In this document: positions 53,425 to 64,000 of the stretch, one piece after another
Layout of the letters: the number at the start of each line of letters is the position of its first letter
How positions within the stretch are numbered: position 1 is the first letter of the stretch
From: Pichia kudriavzevii
Lineage: Eukaryota > Ascomycota > Pichiomycetes > Pichiales > Pichiaceae
DNA: 64,000 nt
Direction: 5' to 3'
Assembly: GCF_003054445.1 (NCBI RefSeq)
Contig: NC_042509.1
Location: 930,001 to 994,000 of the forward strand
Notes under the pieces: generated by a model
What the model was told of the DNA's origin: nothing
Seen by the model: only the letters and a program-made list of their open reading frames with translations
Database searches by the model: none
Program-made: the position numbers and the translations under genes

Positions 53425-54516
53425 ATGACTCTCAAACGATCATTATCCCAGAAGTTCAAGTCCACGTTGGAAAAGACCAAACGAATAGTGAGCTCCTCAT
53501 CTCTATCATCATTCGACAATCATTCGCCTTCGGTTTCAGATAGCTTTTCCTTCAACTCCACCGATTTCTCAACTCCATTAACGTCTACATCCACCACCTT
53601 CAATGATGCTACGGATTTCGGAGGCTTGGGGATCCAATATAACAAGGACTCGATTTCATTGAATCGAAAGTCAAGTAGTCTTGATCCTCCAACGTTGTTA
53701 TATTCTAGAAAGAAAAGATCAGGAACAATGTCAAGGTCGATACCAAATCGTAAACAGTCTATTGATTTGATCGATACAAGTACTCCTACAAATATCACAA
53801 GCTCGATTCCAACTCCAGTGTCTCAAGATGATCTACTAAGTCTGAGCTGTCGTTCGAATTACTCCTTCACTCAGAATGATGAGAACTTTGAAAATGACAC
53901 TGGTGGATTGATCATTCTACCTTCAGGTCCAAATGATGATGATGATATTGATGATGATGATAATAACAATAACAACAACAATAATAACAATAACAACAAC
54001 AATAATAACAATAACAACAACAATAATAACAATAACAACAATAATAATAACAATAACCACAATAACAATATTAGTGGCAAACTTAACAATACCAATAGCA
54101 ATGACAACAATAAAACTACCATTGAGGGTAGTCATGATATTCTATTATCGGCTTTCTTATCCCATTCTGCAGAATTAGAAAAAAATTCTTCATATCTAGA
54201 CTCGCAATCACAAGATAGACCTTCAATTTTGATACCATCAAATTATAGCTCAACTACAACTTCGTATACTCTGAACTCCTTTGCTGAGAATTCGGCAAAG
54301 TGTAACATGGATTTATTGGAATCTCATGAAATCATACAAGACGATGTTGACTCGATCTTCACCAAATCAAATCAAATTGATCACCTCGATAAAGATCTAG
54401 ACACAAGGAAAAATGATTTACTTGCTGACCAGATGGCTTTGAATATTTTGCAAAATATTGATGAGGAAGATGTTGACGAACTATCAAAACTAAAAGAAGA
54501 AATTTCAATGATTTAA
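53425..54516 (+). CDS. Poly-asparagine protein of unknown function
   Basis: 363 residues from a true ATG. It begins with a basic, Ser-rich segment (LKRSLSQKFKSTLEKTKR), continues with Ser/Thr-rich disorder containing RKS/RKQS sites that suit basophilic kinases, an acidic DDDDIDDDD run, a pure Asn tract of about 35 residues plus a His-interrupted extension, and an acidic C-terminus (NIDEEDVDELSKLKEEISM) likely helical. No domain is recognised. AAT and AAC are mixed in the tract, so it is not a simple trinucleotide repeat. Confidence 0.65.
   Translation: MTLKRSLSQKFKSTLEKTKRIVSSSSLSSFDNHSPSVSDSFSFNSTDFSTPLTSTSTTFNDATDFGGLGIQYNKDSISLNRKSSSLDPPTLLYSRKKRSGTMSRSIPNRKQSIDLIDTSTPTNITSSIPTPVSQDDLLSLSCRSNYSFTQNDENFENDTGGLIILPSGPNDDDDIDDDDNNNNNNNNNNNNNNNNNNNNNNNNNNNNNNNNHNNNISGKLNNTNSNDNNKTTIEGSHDILLSAFLSHSAELEKNSSYLDSQSQDRPSILIPSNYSSTTTSYTLNSFAENSAKCNMDLLESHEIIQDDVDSIFTKSNQIDHLDKDLDTRKNDLLADQMALNILQNIDEEDVDELSKLKEEISMI
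53956..54070. repeat. Asn-coding AAT/AAC tract
   Basis: An in-frame run of AAT and AAC codons with an internal longer period of about 27 bases (AATAACAATAACAACAAC units), inside the poly-Asn gene. Confidence 0.85.
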
Positions 54517-54988: not shown

Positions 54989-57900
54989 ATGGTATGTAAC
55001 TCATTACCTTCTTTATTTTAGAGAAGCGCAAAGATACTAACTACAGTAGTCTTCATTTACTGCACTTAATTTAAGTGATGAGGAGGTGGATATTGAAGAA
55101 CATACTAGAGAACTTCAGATCGAAGTTGCCTTACAGACGCTACAACGTGGTTTGGAATACCAGAAAAACGGCGATTATCTAAATGCACGTAGGAAGTATG
55201 ATGAGTTGGGCAGGATCGAAATCATACAAATGGTAAACTCGACAAACAATCCAACAATTGACTCTTTGAAATATCTATGTTTCCGAAATAGGGGGATGCT
55301 AAGATTACGTGAACTCATTGACAACTCCATAAAGACAAATAATGGAAATCCTAGTGTACATGTTGGTGGTGATTCCCACAAAGAGAAAGTCAACGATTAT
55401 GGTGATGATGATGTCGGTATCAGTGTGTATGGTGAATTTCTCGGCGCAATGAATGATCTCTTGAATGCTGTATCGTTCGGTACACCTGACGATAAGATTA
55501 TTATCATTTTGGCATCTTTATTTGAACATTTTGGCTATTTAAGGCTTTCTCGGCTTTGCTATGAATTGAAAACGTTCAATGATGATATATTATTAATAAA
55601 CGATGCAAAACTAATTGATGGATATCTGAAGTTGCTTTCGAACTTAAACGTTCATAATAGAGTATACTCCAAGCTGAAAAATAAAATCGAAAGGAGTTTA
55701 TTTTGGAAAAATAGAAATGAATTTAAATCGTATGATTGGGATGAGTTACTGACCTTAGAAGCGTGGGAAAACGAGAGATGTGATGCACTAAAAGAAGAAC
55801 TAGTTATTGAAGTCGATGTTAATGATGGCATTGTTAATATAGACCATTTATTGGGCGAATTTGTAGGATGTCTACCAAAACCTAAAGGAAGAGGGAAGTG
55901 CTATGATGGATATACTTTAACTGGAAAAACCATCGATAAAGTTGAGTTTGAATTTCATTTCAAGAATACGGAGCCAATCAGAAGTGAAGACACAAATGAC
56001 TCTGTGGAAAAACCTCATAGTGAAAGAAAGATCGAAGACCTTGATCTTCCTGAAAAAAATGATGCCGTTTTAACCGCCTCTGATTCCGGAAACCAAGTGA
56101 TTAATGATACTGTCCGCTTTAGAGTGCTTAGAACCAAGAATGAAGATGACCAAAATGACCAACTGAAGAATTCTTTGGAACGATTGAACAATTTTGCATC
56201 TGTCACTTTACCCTCATTCTTGAAAACATGTAACATTAACATAAATTTCCCATCCTTGGTAAATCTAATATTATACGGGGATGAGTGCGGTATTGATTTA
56301 ATGACGAGGAAGTTTTATTCGTGTATTAAGAGTTGGGATGATGACTTCACCCAGTGTCTATCGGTTACCGGAGATAACAAAAAGAAAAATAATGAATCAG
56401 TTAGAGAGATACTTAACATTAACTCATCAAAAGTTATAAACCACTCGAAATATACAACTGCAGATGTAGTCTCTTTGAAGCCGTTTCTTGACTCTATGAA
56501 TAGCGGAGGGATGCATTTTAACGAAATTAGGATGCATGTTTTAGAGTACTTGTTCAATTCAAAATATATCTGTTTTAATAACATGAGTAAAGCTTCTTTG
56601 AGGAACTTAAAATCCATAGTTGATTCTGTCAGTATTAACTATTTTAACCAAATGGAGAAATCAGTTAACATTGGAGAAACAATAGACTCACGCATGTTGA
56701 ATATTGCAGTTTCGATATTTGAACTTCTAGTTGATTCCTTCTTGGAGCAATCGAAAGAGCAAAAATTGAAAATCACGAAGTCTTCCAACTTGCTACAAGA
56801 TCCGTACAGTTCCGAAAATATCCTTATCAATAGAATAAACAAATGGAGCTCGATTATAGAAGACATGCTTATTACTGATCAAACAATAGGAAAATCTGAA
56901 GTATGGTGCAGATTCAAATGGTTTCAATTATTGTATTTGCAGAGCTGTCCTTCGCATATCAAAACGCAAATTTTGACCGATTTATTGACTGATTTAATTG
57001 ACGTTATTAGATCCAACGAGTTGTACTTGCCGTATGTGAATTTTGAATTGGTGCCCGTATTAAGCTATGAAAGTATCAGTACACAGCACTCTAAGTTGAG
57101 CATCCTACAAATGTTTGATTCAAATGATAAATCCAATGAAATTCTTGAGAACATTCTGTTGGGCTTGCCAAATCCCACATTAAACGATGATCCAGCTAAA
57201 AGTCAACTTGAAAAATTTACTAAGCTAGCAAACTTACAAATGAAACTGAGGTTATGGTGTTTACTTTTGAGATTTTATAGAATTGAGAATCAAATAGAGA
57301 AATATAAATTAGCTTTTGAGAAAGTGCTAAATATTATGACAAATGAACTGCATCCAGACAGCTTGATAAAATTGTCACCGGAAGATCAAAATTTCACAAT
57401 CCTTACTATAGTTGGATTCTTCAATTATTTTTCAACCAAATTTATTGAATTTGCAGATGAATGTAACTTCACGTGCTTTCAACCAACACATCGTCAATCC
57501 TCTTCAGCTGTGTTATCATTTATTGGCTCTTTAACTTATTGCTTATACTCTTTCTTAATGTATCAAAAATCAGTCCAGGTGTCTCGCAAATTAAGTCTGC
57601 ATACAGTTTCTGTTAAATCCTATGAGATATTAATGAATGCAATCTCATGCTGTTTATTTCTTGCGTGTGCATATTATCCAAGTGCACTAACAAACCGAAA
57701 TGAGGAATACATCAATGATTTTATGAGCCTATGCCATGTTGAGCTAGGATTGAGGCACAAATGTATGACATTAAATGGCACATTCCTAAAATTCCTACAA
57801 CTCAAGCTTTTAGACCTTGATATTAATATCTCTTGCACTGATTTCTTTCAGGTGATACATTGTAGGTTTGGAATGCCGGTGTCCCTGGATAAGTTTGATA

Positions 57901-60900
57901 CGTTTGATCATAAGTGCAAACCAAAGAGTATGACTGTTGAAGATTCTGAGCAATTATCCCAATACATTTCTAAATATTGCTACAAAGGTAAGCATCCTGC
58001 TGTATCGCCACCAAAGAGTGATATCAAAAGTATCATTGATAAAATAGTCCAAACTGTCGAACCTATCCAAGAAACCGATCCTGCTTCCGTACAAAACCGA
58101 AAAATTTTCAACAACTTCTTAAAGCATACTAGTATCGACATGGAATTTATTATAGCTTGTTTTCAAGGTGATTTTGAACTTGATTTCAAAACTCCAGATG
58201 GTATCTTTGCCTCAGTTGCTAAAAACGGTATGTATTATCTTCAAGGCATTGTTGGGCTAAATCTTGTAAATTCCAGGAAAAGGAACGCTTATTTAAGATC
58301 TAGTGAACTTGAACTCATCCAAAAAACGCTAGAAAAAGATATACAATGTGGGTGCAACCGTTTTGAAACCTGGGTTGCATTGGGACAAATATATTCATAT
58401 CTTGTGGAGTATGATTTGATTTGGACTGCAGATAAGCTCAATTCAATCGAACGTAAGCATCAAACAGCATTTACTCAGAAAAAAGCACTTTTGTGTTATT
58501 TCAATGCTATCAATACATTGAACAAATTACCAAACTCAGAACGATCTAAAGCTTCAGCTGTGCTCCCTGGGTTTTGGGAATCTTTAGGTAAAGAACTGTA
58601 TGCAGCATGGAGAGAACCAATGAATAAACGAGCATTTCATGTCAAGCCAAAGGAGGATAAAAATGACCAGATTATTTATCTTGCGTCTAATGATATACCA
58701 CATAATGCCATTTCTAAACTGTTAGACTTAGCATTTAAAAACGCCTATGAGCTTAATAGAAGTAGTTGGTTTGATCTGATGTACCTAGCAAAATCAGAAC
58801 TAATGCTGCAATATGTTGATGTAAAGTCAAAATTGATAGTTGAAAGTTTGTTAAAAGCTTGCACTTTATCATTAGATCAAAGCAACAAGGAAGATCCGAT
58901 TTTAGAACCACATTACTATCTTTTCACCATTGTAGGAAAATTGCTTAAGAGGGGAATTATTACAGAGGCAGATGCTATTCAGATTTATAAGGACGATGAC
59001 CTATTTGTTTCGATATTTGAAGGAGAGGAATCAACGGATTTTCCAATTATAGCAAAAAAAATGCTTGAAAAAATGATTGATTATGATAAAAAGAAATGGC
59101 AGCATAAACCAGTTTACAAGTTGGCTAAATGGTACCATGACGTAGAACATAACAATTTGAAAGCAAAGGAAGAAATGCTCAAGCTTGTCAACCTCAAGGC
59201 CAACGTAAGAGCACTGAGTACTATATGGAAACCTAACAGTGAAAGGCCCGGAAAGCATTATATTTACAATTCCATATACACCCAATTTCTGGTTGATATT
59301 TTGTATGAACTAGGAGATATTTATTCGTTAAGCATCTTGGTGAAAAAAATGAGGAGGGCAGGCTCGACTATGGTCAACCTTACTAAAACTTTTGATGCCA
59401 TTACATTACGAACATGTAGTTTGTTGAAGAAAAGCTTGAAAATAGAACCAGGATATTTAGACAATGTGATTTCTAAGATTAAATTTGCTGACTTTTTAAA
59501 ATACTCCAATGAGTATATAGAAACTTTGAGAAATACCAACATTTTTGATGATAACATGCTGCTGCACTTTTATTTTCTAAGCGAGACTCATAACTTCAGA
59601 AAATTGGCGACAGGTTTTGGTGCAACGGGAGTGATTGATGAATCTTTCCATAGTATATATATGTTGCTGTTCATGCCTTACTTAACAAAAAGGATTATCG
59701 CAGAAGAATTCAAAGGACTACCTGCAAAATATCTACTTGAAAAGTCAAAGAAATTCTCGGTAGATAAAATACTGAAACCAAAACAGTCGACTCCCGATGC
59801 AACGAATTTTCCAGAAGGTCCAGAAATTCAACTAGACCCTATAACAGGGTTACTCGTTCCTGTTACAGCTAAAGAACAAACAGATGAAGAAATTCCTCCA
59901 TTGGAAGAGTTCTCCAAGGTTTACCAAGATATTATCCACCTACCTCTTCAGGATCAACTATCCATTATTTCTTATTTGTCGTTTTCATCACTTGGAAGTG
60001 ACACTCCTGCCAAGGACAAAATTAAAGTTGCACGTAGGGATGTTACACCTTTTGCCACTAAAGTTGTCAATATAACGCAGTCTTTTGTTGATGAGTTGAA
60101 AGAACGAACTGAAGATGGTAAATCGATAAACTATGGGATTGAAGGGCCATTTACGGAGAAAGATTTAATGAATGTTAATGTAGGTGTGTCAGTAAAGACA
60201 ACTAAAGAAAACAAGGAAGATTGGGAATTCAACAAACTGACATCTGCACATGATCGTTCTTTTACAGCGGTTGAATTGAGTAACTTCAACAAAATTTTGG
60301 ACACATATGGTGTAACCACACTAGAAAACCCACAAACTAATTCTGAAGTGGAGGTTGAAAAAATGAGGATGGAAGGTATGAAACAAGAGGAAGCTAACCA
60401 AAATGGAAACGTAGTATCTGTTTATGGAAGTAAGTCTGCCCAAGGATTATCTAATAATAGTGTGAATCATGAACAAGAAAGTAAGGATTCATTGCACAAA
60501 AACAATGAAATAAGTTCCTTGCCTGATCATGAGATAAATGACACTCCTATATCCACTACTCCTTTATTCCCATCTTCTGCTCAAGAGTCCGGCGTTAATA
60601 CTTGGTCTGCTCAGTCGGGGATGGATGTTAATAACCCTTTCCACTCACCCTCTAAAACCAATGCTATCGAAGGTACACTCTTAGCACAAAACACGTCTGT
60701 TCAAACAACTGACGATTTACCTCAAAGTATGTCTGTGACTGGGAATTCTAACGCTCCTATCACCAAAATTCTACCTGAACACTATAATAAGAATGCAGAT
60801 CCAGCCAATAACGAAGAGTGTAGTAAGCATTGTGAGGAAACCAAAAATATCATAACAGGCTCTCCGGGGGGATCTGAGAAGTTAACACCATCCAAGCCAG

Positions 60901-61286
60901 TACAATCAAAAATCACTAGCTTTTTCAAACTGACACCGTCCAGAGAGTCAGATTTTAGTTCAATGGCCTCTGATGGAGGTGCTAGCCCCTTGAAAAGAAA
61001 AATGCTTGAAGAAAATACATCTGCGGCGAAAAGAGGGAGATATTATTTTGATACAGATGATATATCCCATTCTAATGCAGAGTCTTCTGAGCATTCGATG
61101 TCTTCATCTCCACGCCGTAACTCGAGACGTTCAGTCTGTAACCCTACGTTGTTTGAATTGGGTAAAGATGGTGTGGTAAAGGAACAGAAGGATATCAAAA
61201 CCGAACGTGCGAAACAACTAGCCGAAGTCATTACCTCTGGAGATGAAGAAGAAAATGCAGAACAAAGCGTCATTATCATAGATTGA
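54989..61286 (+). CDS. HIR3: HIR histone-chaperone subunit Hir3 (spliced)
   Basis: Two exons: 54989-54991 (the ATG alone) and 55050-61286, giving 2,079 residues. The unspliced frame has no ATG for the conserved N-terminus; joining at 55050 gives MSSFTALNLSDEEVDIEEHT and then RELQIE, agreeing with S. cerevisiae Hir3 (MSMFNALN, EEHSRELQIE). Hir3/CABIN1 is the TPR-like scaffold of the HIR complex, which deposits H3-H4 outside S phase and represses histone genes. Conserved blocks include YLCFRNRGMLRL, NRFETWVALGQIYSYLVE, DPILEPHYYLF, KKWQHKPVYKLA and ERPGKHYIYNSIY. A tail of about 350 residues beyond the helical part carries QSKITSFF (1953-1960), IKTE and a terminal VIIID. Confidence 0.93.
54992..55049 (+). 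other. 58-nt spliceosomal intron of HIR3
   Basis: Donor GTATGT at 54992-54997, branch point TACTAAC at 55035-55041 and tandem acceptor CAGTAG at 55044-55049. Only the distal AG keeps the frame; it lies nine bases after the branch adenosine. Without splicing the ATG opens a 10-codon frame. Confidence 0.85.
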
Positions 61287-61353: not shown

Positions 61354-61938
61354 TCATTCAACATCAAAGTCAGGATCTATTTTGGCTGCACTCTCTGACA
61401 CTCCCCACTTCTCACCAACGAAAACCTTGTTGTTCTTTATTTGGTTTATATCGCTAGGCAAATTCTTGCCAATTTTCATCTTTAATTCATCTTCTAGTAA
61501 TTTCTTATCCTGTTCCTTTTGGATTTGCGGTACAAGGTCACGTTCTTCGAGCTTGATAAAATCCTCAACCTTCATCACACCAAAAAGCAGGTCGTGTGTA
61601 AAACCAGTTTTGGAATTCTTTAAAGCCACCAAATCCTTTCGAAACCGCAATTTATAGCCACTCAAAGAATCATTATATTTTTTGTGGAGCATTTCTTCAT
61701 AAGATTTTGCAATCAAGCTTGAACTCTGGGGCAAATCTTCATCCGGATGTTTGGACCGATAACTGTCCAAGGTTTTCGTCATTGCATTAATACAGGCAAG
61801 ACGTGTCACCCTCCAAACATCACTGGGATCATCGCCATAGAATATACCGGTGTCCCTTTTGCTTTTACGACTAGCGTCTTTTCCTGCAGTTGTGTTGCTT
61901 TTGAGTCCTCTAGTATATCTGTTGTCTGATTTTGCCAT
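61354..61938 (-). CDS. Protein with a TFIIS central domain, no zinc ribbon
   Basis: 194 residues from the ATG at 61938 (open frame continues 21 codons upstream without ATG). Residues from about 38 to 150 resemble the three-helix TFIIS central (Pol II-binding) domain: RLACINAMTKTL, a Lys/Arg block YKLRFRKDLVALKNSK, HDLLFGVMKVEDFIKLEERDL and a closing Gln/Lys helix. There is no C-terminal zinc ribbon as in Dst1 and no PHD finger as in Bye1. It may be a cut-down paralogue or a separate Pol II-binding protein. Convergent with HIR3, with 67 bases between stops. Confidence 0.7.
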   Translation of the reverse strand: MAKSDNRYTRGLKSNTTAGKDASRKSKRDTGIFYGDDPSDVWRVTRLACINAMTKTLDSYRSKHPDEDLPQSSSLIAKSYEEMLHKKYNDSLSGYKLRFRKDLVALKNSKTGFTHDLLFGVMKVEDFIKLEERDLVPQIQKEQDKKLLEDELKMKIGKNLPSDINQIKNNKVFVGEKWGVSESAAKIDPDFDVE

Positions 61939-62339: not shown

Positions 62340-64000
62340 ATGAACAGTCATCATTATTCTGCTGGTATGCGGCATCAACCAAGCAACGTTGCTTCAGATT
62401 CAGAATTGGCATATCGCTTAGAGCCAACTATAAATCAGAATAAACTGGAACCTTCAAAAAACCCAGAGGGAGAAAATCATCATGAAAAGAGTCTGGCTTT
62501 CAATAACGATATGAATAAAAGCCCCCCACCATTACCAAATGTTCCAAGTTCGTCCGATATATATACAAAAAAAATTGCAAATTTCAAACGAAAATTAAAG
62601 ACATTGAAAGGTATTTCCACCTTAGATATAAGGAAAACATCACAGAGTACCATTAAAGGTAACAAACAGCGATGTGAAAACAATTGTGACAAGCACAAAG
62701 TAGTCACAAGCATGGATGATCGGGTATTGGCGAACGTTTTAACCATTGATAATAATGTAACCAACTTTCCCACCTGTTTTAGTAGGAACAGTTTTGACGC
62801 TTCATCACCAAAAGTAACTGCTCTGCTCGACCCGAAAAGCTTTAATTTCCCAACTAGAAAGTTAGCTAGAGACACCAGATGTTCGATATGTAACCTACAA
62901 CTCGATACATCGTATAATATCATAAAAAATGAACATATAATAGAGCTTCAATGTGGACATATGACACACGAGGAATGTTTATTGATGGAGATTGAGCTAA
63001 GCTTGACTTTATCCAAAACGTTTCTGGAAAACCAGCAGATGTTAAAAGACTTTTTTCCCCCATGTGGATCATGCCCGAATAACGTAAAAGCAGCAAAACC
63101 AAAAGAAGAAGATATTATGACTCGATTATTTACTAGACTGATTACTTCCGAAATAATCCCGATTAGAAATTCAATTATATCAAATCAAACACCAACAACA
63201 CCCCTTTTCTCTGATACATCCAAAATCTTAGACCAAAGTACTAATTCCATTTTATCAATAGACCATAAACATACGGACTATACCAACCATCTGGAAATAG
63301 AGAATTATTTTGATATGCCTTCTTCTGTAAAATCAACGGGCAAATCATTCTATGGAGAGGAAAACAATGAGAACACCAACACCAGCAAATTGAAAAAAAA
63401 TATTGAAGAGCAAAAGCATTCAAAGAAATCATATAAAACACATAGGAAAAAGCCATCACGGGGATCATATGTTTCTGCCACTTCTGCGATTGTCACTTCG
63501 TCTTCGTCAACCAATAATATAAAGAATGAAGCTGCAAAAATCACGTACAATGGAACACCAACAATAGGTGACCAAAAATTTATAGAAGATCTGGTCAAAC
63601 TATCGAACAAAAACATTATTGAATCTACTGATGATGCAAATTTCAAGCTGACCCTCAGCTTTGTCAAATCTTTAGGAAAATTAATACTTGTAGATAAACT
63701 TAACGCACTCGAAAGTATTAATGGAAAGCAATCGACTGTTACCGAAAAGTATTGTTACTTATTTGAACACATGTTAATCACTATAAGTTCGAAGGATTAC
63801 ATATTTTCTATGTTTACCATAACACATACAACATATGTCTACACACAACCAAGGTGTATAACGATGCAAGCATGTAAAAGCTCCGCCAGTTATTGCAACC
63901 TATTGTTTGACAAAGACATTGTATTTGAAAGATGGGCTAAAGTTTTGACAGATCGACGAAAAAAAATGGAAATGCCTGAAATCACACTAACAATGCATGA
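62340..64000 (+). CDS. Ste5/Far1-family pheromone scaffold, N-terminal part
   Basis: The frame is open from the ATG at 62340 to the window end (553 codons), so the 3' part is missing. In order: a disordered start; a basic amphipathic stretch (KKIANFKRKLKTLKG, about 75-90) of the type that binds membranes; an RING-H2-like domain at 181-246 (CSIC, CGHMTHEEC, CGSC) with the pattern shared by Ste5 and Far1, which binds G-beta-gamma; a Ser/Asn-rich linker; and a PH-like domain at about 430-545 (KYCYLFEHMLITISS ... FERWAKVLTD). Ste5 tethers the mating MAP-kinase cascade and Far1 arrests the cell cycle; the part that would separate them lies outside the window. A second ATG at 62333 is in another frame. 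Confidence 0.8.
   Translation, partial: MNSHHYSAGMRHQPSNVASDSELAYRLEPTINQNKLEPSKNPEGENHHEKSLAFNNDMNKSPPPLPNVPSSSDIYTKKIANFKRKLKTLKGISTLDIRKTSQSTIKGNKQRCENNCDKHKVVTSMDDRVLANVLTIDNNVTNFPTCFSRNSFDASSPKVTALLDPKSFNFPTRKLARDTRCSICNLQLDTSYNIIKNEHIIELQCGHMTHEECLLMEIELSLTLSKTFLENQQMLKDFFPPCGSCPNNVKAAKPKEEDIMTRLFTRLITSEIIPIRNSIISNQTPTTPLFSDTSKILDQSTNSILSIDHKHTDYTNHLEIENYFDMPSSVKSTGKSFYGEENNENTNTSKLKKNIEEQKHSKKSYKTHRKKPSRGSYVSATSAIVTSSSSTNNIKNEAAKITYNGTPTIGDQKFIEDLVKLSNKNIIESTDDANFKLTLSFVKSLGKLILVDKLNALESINGKQSTVTEKYCYLFEHMLITISSKDYIFSMFTITHTTYVYTQPRCITMQACKSSASYCNLLFDKDIVFERWAKVLTDRRKKMEMPEITLTMH

Follow-up and report, generated by a model that had tools for sequence, protein, structure and literature searches.

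Textbooks describe HIR as the H3-H4 chaperone that works independently of replication, and Hir proteins have reportedly been tied to PCNA by genetics (work credited to Krawitz in 2002 and Sharp in 2001). Mutants in hir2 and hir3 show interactions with polymerase mutants and sensitivity to hydroxyurea, from which S-phase deposition by HIR was inferred by the authors; the same source, as excerpted, holds that only CAF-1 links PCNA unloading with nucleosome assembly, hir mutants showing the opposite profile (PMC4593000), which argues against docking of HIR on PCNA. Hir1 and Asf1 have been named as candidate PCNA contacts (PMC5834165), in Tetrahymena Hir1 and Pcna1 co-localise (PMC10741905), and the part of PMC4418760 drawn on here leaves unsettled how Hir reaches breaks. 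PIP boxes and SIMs are already known; among the matches listed from the open-licence PMC literature, judged by title and start of abstract, there was no paper on either motif in Hir3, CABIN1 or HIRA, nor a conserved canonical PIP box in a HIR subunit.

Besides S. cerevisiae Hir3, close described systems are CAF-1, Srs2 and Elg1. CAF-1, on the H3-H4 chaperone side, is drawn to PCNA by an ITxFF-type PIP-like peptide of its large subunit (Cac1 or p150). The p150 peptide departs from the canonical residue at position 1 and forms the end of a long helix, and in the mammalian sequence KAEITRFF a change of K to Q at position 1 strengthens binding (excerpts of PMC9570017). Positive flanks can shift the affinity of PIP peptides over four orders of magnitude, and negative flanks probably mean no PCNA binding (excerpts of PMC6881253). 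Srs2, for which the S. cerevisiae comparison rests on papers, is a helicase whose C-terminal arm holds a non-canonical PIP, a six-residue spacer and a SIM; the PIP and SIM sites are 36 Å apart, which six residues cannot bridge, and joint binding was judged implausible (excerpts of PMC6116012). Deletion of the last six residues removes the SIM only, and this SIM is bound by the SUMO-like domains of Esc2 (excerpts of PMC4604347). Elg1, likened here by description, also has SIMs and a PIP-like motif, but these are N-terminal and the protein is a clamp unloader.

The window analysed here is a 64,000-nucleotide stretch of Pichia kudriavzevii DNA (NC_042509.1, positions 930,001 to 994,000 of the forward strand); the source genome, which was also searched, comprises 10.79 Mb in 5 contigs. 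Its Hir3 gene has the following features, with counts referring to the 14 Hir3 proteins of a Pichia clade defined below.

54989-54991, + strand: Hir3 exon 1, predicted, consisting of the start codon only (ATG, then GTATGT)
54992-55049, + strand: 58-nt intron, GTATGT ... TACTAACTACAGTAG, inferred from splice signals and homologous N-termini
55050-61286, + strand: Hir3 exon 2 including the stop codon, by relatives P0001-P0041; whole protein 2079 aa
55245-59516, + strand: conserved Hir3-type core, by match to 8gha_D
60903-60926, + strand: PIP box QSKITSFF, aa 1953-1960; strict PIP in 14/14
60933-60944, + strand: TPSR, full-consensus CDK site two residues past the PIP; [ST]Px[KR] here in 12/14
61113-61130, + strand: RRNSRR, conserved basic motif, putatively NLS-like or a basophilic kinase site; the SPRRNSRR window is third among separate windows
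61152-61241, + strand: predicted small beta-hairpin and helix (FELGKDGVVKEQKDIKTERAKQLAEVITSG), two AlphaFold2 models
61194-61205, + strand: IKTE, aa 2050-2053, proposed SUMO-acceptor, unsupported; ψ-K-x-E near the end in 1/14
61242-61283, + strand: acidic run DEEENAE (61242-61262) and C-terminal SIM-type peptide SVIIID (61266-61283); 14/14

The first-pass annotation had called the protein Hir3, and rightly: residues 6-1429 of the open reading frame (1424 residues) match S. cerevisiae Hir3 of the HIR complex (PDB 8gha chain D) with E = 3.6e-89, and the second structural match is a Hir3 homologue (8gix_D, E = 6.1e-41). This core homology and the placement in the tree below put it in the Hir3/CABIN1 family. 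Pfam returned 0 families on the frame, and the records of its homologues carry the precomputed entries PF27595, PF27584 and PF27596. The S. cerevisiae protein, homologous over the core, has 1648 residues (8gha_D) against 2079 here, a difference of 431 where about 430 had been claimed. The open reading frame at 55230-61286, with its stop codon at 61284-61286, is the main exon; the start-codon intron at 54992-55049 appears from the sequence to complete a 2079-residue protein whose N-terminus agrees with those of relatives, and on comparison of translations the spliced start MSSFTALNLSDEEVDIEEHTRELQIE resembles that of P0008, MSSFTARNLSDDDSDIQEHTRELQIE. A gene call blind to this intron begins Hir3 later, as in P0001 (MDIEEHTREL).

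Convergent with Hir3 lies a minus-strand gene (61354-61938) for a 194-aa protein, mainly a TFIIS central domain (PF07500, E = 1e-10) and with no further Pfam family up to E 0.1. A plus-strand frame at 62340-63998, which runs off the window, has RING-finger and PH_10 matches, all under the curated cut-offs, and its product is one that we take to resemble a Ste5-type scaffold. At 53425-54516 a plus-strand gene encodes 363 residues, among them a long stretch of asparagines, and no Pfam family matches its product up to E 0.1.

Two protein searches gave 41 distinct Hir3-family proteins (P0001-P0041, database clusters), the first of which is 100% identical to the Hir3 of the window after rounding and appears to come from the same species. 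A tree of the Hir3 core (758 columns, 41 rows, quick method) united P0001-P0008 and P0010-P0015, including P. inconspicua (P0008) and P. membranifaciens (P0010), in a monophyletic Pichia clade of 14 with SH-aLRT 100. The closest relatives outside it are P0016, P0018 and P0019, followed by two Ogataea proteins and that of Brettanomyces naardenensis (P0017); outgroups near the clade are few in this sample. Kinship within this clade (P0004 and P0010, for example, are 91% identical over residues 900-1700) means that its 14 sequences do not represent 14 independent events. One of 23 more distant proteins, P0025 (1506 aa), may be incomplete.

The peptide QSKITSFF had been read as an exact fit to the PIP-box pattern, and both its position and its pattern were borne out. 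Under the consensus Q-x-x-[ILMV]-x-x-[FYW]-[FYW] (PMC9570017, as excerpted) a canonical PIP is found in all 14 Pichia-clade proteins, and a scan of the 41 proteins with the stricter Q..[ILM]..[FY][FY] finds it once in each of the 14, always in the tail and always as QxxITx[FY]F. The search of close relatives that the first-pass annotation had proposed as a check was thereby run; it favoured this motif and the terminal SIM-type end, each kept in 14 of 14, and went against the SUMO-acceptor site. Two other Hir3 have a stray strict match outside the tail (P0023 at residue 69, P0029 at residue 761). The tails of the nearest out-of-clade relatives, P0016-P0019, contain no canonical PIP, and the 23 remaining proteins, which include the two Ogataea sequences, have neither a canonical PIP nor a SIM-like end in their last 240 residues; the motif is therefore a lineage-specific trait. 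Seven of these sequences, P0034-P0040 (1640-1665 aa), lie on the Eremothecium branch, with the S. cerevisiae protein left out of the count, and lack both a strict PIP and a SIM-type end.

Within the variable part of the tail (315 residues) the PIP octamer ranks first of 308 windows, with a mean pairwise column identity of 0.747 against 0.204 for the variable tail (median 0.11). Over the whole 562-residue tail it drops to rank 28 of 555, since conservation extends to the part adjoining the core as well. Taken as separate windows, the order in the variable tail is the PIP, EQSVIIID (0.621), SPRRNSRR, LFELGKDG and LAEVITSG, and the invariant columns include the Q, I, T, second F and P of QSKITSFFKLTP as well as an I and the D of the C-terminal end. 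Shuffling (20,000 shuffles per tail, 14 relatives) produced a strict PIP in 0.06-0.38% of cases and Q..IT.[FY]F in ≤0.02%. Genome-wide, CARNNNNNNATHACNNNNTTYTTY matched 19 times and its reversed control 8 times, from which we calculate about 1.6e-4 expected in frame in a 438-codon tail. Chance origin of the PIP was rejected on the shuffles, the genome-wide control and the conservation rank.

AlphaFold2 modelling of the 438-residue tail placed the PIP (312-319) in a stretch without secondary structure, with block mean pLDDT of 45-49 and values below 50 in the segments on either side (225-307 and 319-390). Its flanks, seven residues each side, are nowhere negative: their net charge is above zero in 13 of the 14 proteins (mean +3.1) and 0 in P0013. 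The last 350 residues, by contrast, have a negative mean charge in 12 of 14. Such a flank charge is reached by ≤11% of tail windows in 12 proteins, the exceptions being P0013 (43%) and P0015 (29%). These same two depart from the clade elsewhere. P0013, with its neutral flanks, has no CDK consensus behind the PIP; P0015, with unremarkable flank charge, has a minimal TP in place of the full CDK site and lacks both RRNSRR, which is weak in P0006, and the hairpin-helix.

The hairpin-helix (FELGKDGVVKEQ...) was predicted with block mean pLDDT of 77, 82 and 70 in the first model and 93, 85 and 64 in the second, the latter giving about 93 for its first ten residues. It is otherwise kept across the Pichia clade, with a divergent second half in P0007 and P0008, and the region aligns in P0016, P0018 and P0019 outside the clade. 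Foldseek returned no fold match for it at E ≤ 0.001, and a PDB sequence search with the Hir3 tail gave no match up to E 10.

Possible degenerate PIP-like peptides are seen in the tails of P0016-P0019 (QQSLDAFV, QQSLNQFV, QMQLSDFI and QSTLPFQ): in P0016, P0018 and P0017 a V or I comes after Q..L..F, and the QSTLPF of P0019 resembles the CAF1 'QARL-PF' named in the excerpted text of PMC6881253. Shuffles yield Q..[ILM]..F in about 3.5% of cases for each of P0016, P0017 and P0018, and in an unguided alignment those of P0016 and P0018 did not line up with the Pichia PIP; an ancestral PIP outside the clade was not accepted as proven, and a degenerate or ancestral motif in these four sequences is only a lead.

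The protein had also been said to end in a classic SIM after an acidic run, and here too the position was confirmed: VIIID (61269-61283, aa 2075-2079) forms its last residues. A SIM-type end is kept throughout the Pichia clade, since [VIL][VIL]x[VIL]D stands at the very end of all 14 proteins with 2-5 acidic residues just upstream in each, mostly in a serine-rich setting, so that every one has the hydrophobic ψ-ψ-x-ψ core and the acidic or serine flank of a SIM. The end has no predicted secondary structure (AlphaFold2, low confidence). It arises in 0.03-0.15% of shuffles per tail (20,000 shuffles, 14 tails), and chance origin was rejected. Looser SIM-like ends occur outside the clade in P0016 (IMEIDL), P0017 (LIEID), P0018 (VIEIE) and P0019 (IIEIE), with shuffle frequencies of 0.2-0.5%, and in 0 of the 23 others, which include the two Ogataea proteins nearest to P0017. 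To judge from these sequences, the SIM-like end probably arose before the canonical PIP and would have been lost, or gained separately, near Ogataea. A PIP and a SIM-type end occur together in 14 of the 41 proteins, namely all 14 of the Pichia clade, where 100-161 residues separate them.

The third motif fared differently. IKTE, put forward as a SUMO-acceptor site, lies where it was reported, but ψ-K-x-E is found in the last 60 residues of only one of the 14 proteins (P0001), and over its full length each of the 14 tails has 0-3 copies. In both AlphaFold2 models the tetrapeptide forms the first residues of a predicted helix. With a conservation of 1/14 it is not conserved as the ψ-K-x-E of a SUMO substrate should be, and it was rejected as an acceptor; the sequences give no sign that it occurs beyond chance.

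The candidate partners are encoded in the same genome. PCNA has one match (L001), which retains the lysine corresponding by alignment to yeast K164 (VVTKESVKF) and has an alanine at the position of S. cerevisiae K127. A SUMO-like frame of 92 aa matches the Rad60-SLD family and ends in GGSI, and ten further matches to the same ubiquitin-like family were found, none identified as Esc2. The CAF-1 large subunit is also present with the motif RRSITNFFKK, so that the Hir3 PIP adds to the PIP-like motif of CAF-1 and is no simple replacement for it. The two are close in sequence (compare QSKITNFFKK in the Hir3 of P0005), but position 1 is basic in RRSITNFF, as in mammalian KAEITRFF, and Q in Hir3; the Hir3 peptide further differs from that of p150 in being canonical, in lying in a tail without predicted structure, and in being accompanied by a SIM-type end.

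Srs2 of this genome is a UvrD-type helicase of about 904 residues (L027:588-3299, + strand) with the C-terminal end KPKKRLGMRRPKLIISKPLASRKPEV. Among the best 120 of 7881 matches to Srs2, which hold no Saccharomycetaceae Srs2, the 14 closest (P0042-P0055, Pichia-type) lack both a terminal SIM and a strict tail PIP. All 14 have RLGM in a basic C-terminal stretch without PIP or SIM. Across these 120 proteins a strict PIP lies in the tail (last 28%) of six, where it may be real, a SIM-like end is found in three by a loose pattern (one of them a partial protein) and in one by a stricter pattern, and the two motifs are together in none. PIPs of the form QS[NS]INSFF are seen in the Srs2 of four other yeasts (P0101, P0112, P0118 and P0128).

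We consider it likely, from these sequence patterns, that HIR in Pichia docks directly on PCNA as one of its clients and reads SUMO with the tip of the tail, the two functions being taken in a general sense. The first-pass interpretation, that the tail may bring HIR to (SUMO-)PCNA, holds in part: the PIP and the SIM are kept in 14/14, while the SUMO-acceptor fails (1/14) and the likeness to Srs2 is partial. The conserved peptide gives good support to a recruitment of HIR to PCNA, and recruitment could be specifically to SUMO-PCNA. The tail of Hir3, the largest HIR subunit, would act in the Pichia clade as a flexible recruitment arm: its PIP, seated in the PIP pocket of PCNA, would tether the entire HIR chaperone to replication forks or repair synthesis, where HIR would work beside CAF-1 in depositing H3-H4 on new DNA. 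The acidic and hydrophobic C-terminal peptide would add SUMO binding and favour SUMO-marked sites, be it SUMO-PCNA or further replication proteins that carry SUMO. The CDK site behind the PIP may put docking under cell-cycle control, since negative charge beside a PIP should, we infer, lower its affinity. PCNA binding, SUMO binding, CDK control and S-phase histone deposition are thus functions that the Hir3 tail may have.

A serious alternative, to which we give somewhat less than an even chance, is that the two motifs are independent modules, the PIP serving PCNA and the SIM a different SUMO or SUMO-like partner, for example an Esc2-type SUMO-like domain or SUMO-modified silencing or histone-gene factors. 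The probable precedence of the SIM-like end (P0016-P0019) is consistent with this, though two Ogataea proteins lack such an end, as are the binding of the Srs2 SIM by the SUMO-like domains of Esc2 (PMC4604347, as excerpted) and the ten further ubiquitin-like matches, none of them identified as Esc2; on the other hand, the tail PIP is never found without the SIM among the 41 proteins.

Possible, but in our view less likely than not, is a tandem receptor after the manner of Srs2, in which the PIP and the terminal SIM would engage the same K164-SUMO PCNA and make HIR specific to SUMO-PCNA in S phase. What Hir3 shares with Srs2 is a C-terminal arm that holds a PCNA motif and closes with a SIM (PMC4604347, as excerpted), and both motifs occur together throughout the clade (14/41). 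The likeness ends at the PIP, which in Srs2 is non-canonical and six residues from the SIM: Hir3 has a canonical PIP followed not directly but after 100-161 residues by its SIM. This spacing would amply span the 36 Å gap (PMC6116012, as excerpted), and joint binding to one SUMO-PCNA is therefore geometrically possible, but not required. The 14 closest Srs2 among the best 120 of 7881 lack the arm, so the post may be vacant. However, PCNA binding through a canonical PIP does not depend on SUMO, SIM-like ends occur without a canonical PIP in P0016-P0019, and cooperativity would be modest because the linker is long; even for Srs2, joint binding was called implausible in the excerpted text of PMC6116012.

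Unlikely as a whole is the fullest version, that Pichia HIR is a dedicated, cell-cycle-gated reader of SUMO-PCNA and a replication-coupled depositor of H3-H4, occupying the PIP-plus-SIM post that Srs2 holds in S. cerevisiae and that would be vacant here. A clean swap from Srs2 to Hir3 was not accepted, since the best 120 of 7881 matches contain no Saccharomycetaceae Srs2 by which loss of the Srs2 arm might be dated. Highly improbable is binding of the PIP-like peptide not to PCNA but to another receptor of the PIP-like family, the Rev1 C-terminal domain or Mlh1. The FF followed by K presumably fits a loose RIR, but the Q at position 1 and the I at position 4, invariant in the 14 aligned Hir3, are not known to be required by RIR or MIP. 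PIP, RIR and MIP motifs can indeed overlap (PMC6881253, as excerpted). Chance likeness in a drifting tail is scarcely credible: strict PIP words do arise elsewhere (6/120 Srs2-like tails among the best 120 of 7881, and two Hir3 outside the tail), but a rank of 1/308 where median column identity is 0.11 contradicts it.

If Pichia HIR is indeed a PCNA client with a SUMO-reading tip, the finding bears on hints from yeast genetics, which in the excerpted sources point to an S-phase role and a possible PCNA contact for HIR without a known physical basis (PMC4593000, PMC5834165). Since a natural HIR complex carries such a conserved PCNA-type peptide, two residue changes would suffice to test for this contact directly. 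The case would also illustrate how the evolution of a short peptide can rewire a chaperone pathway between replication-independent and replication-coupled work, and, should the reading as a SUMO-PCNA reader also be true, 'replication-independent' HIR would be physically present at the fork or at post-replicative gap filling.
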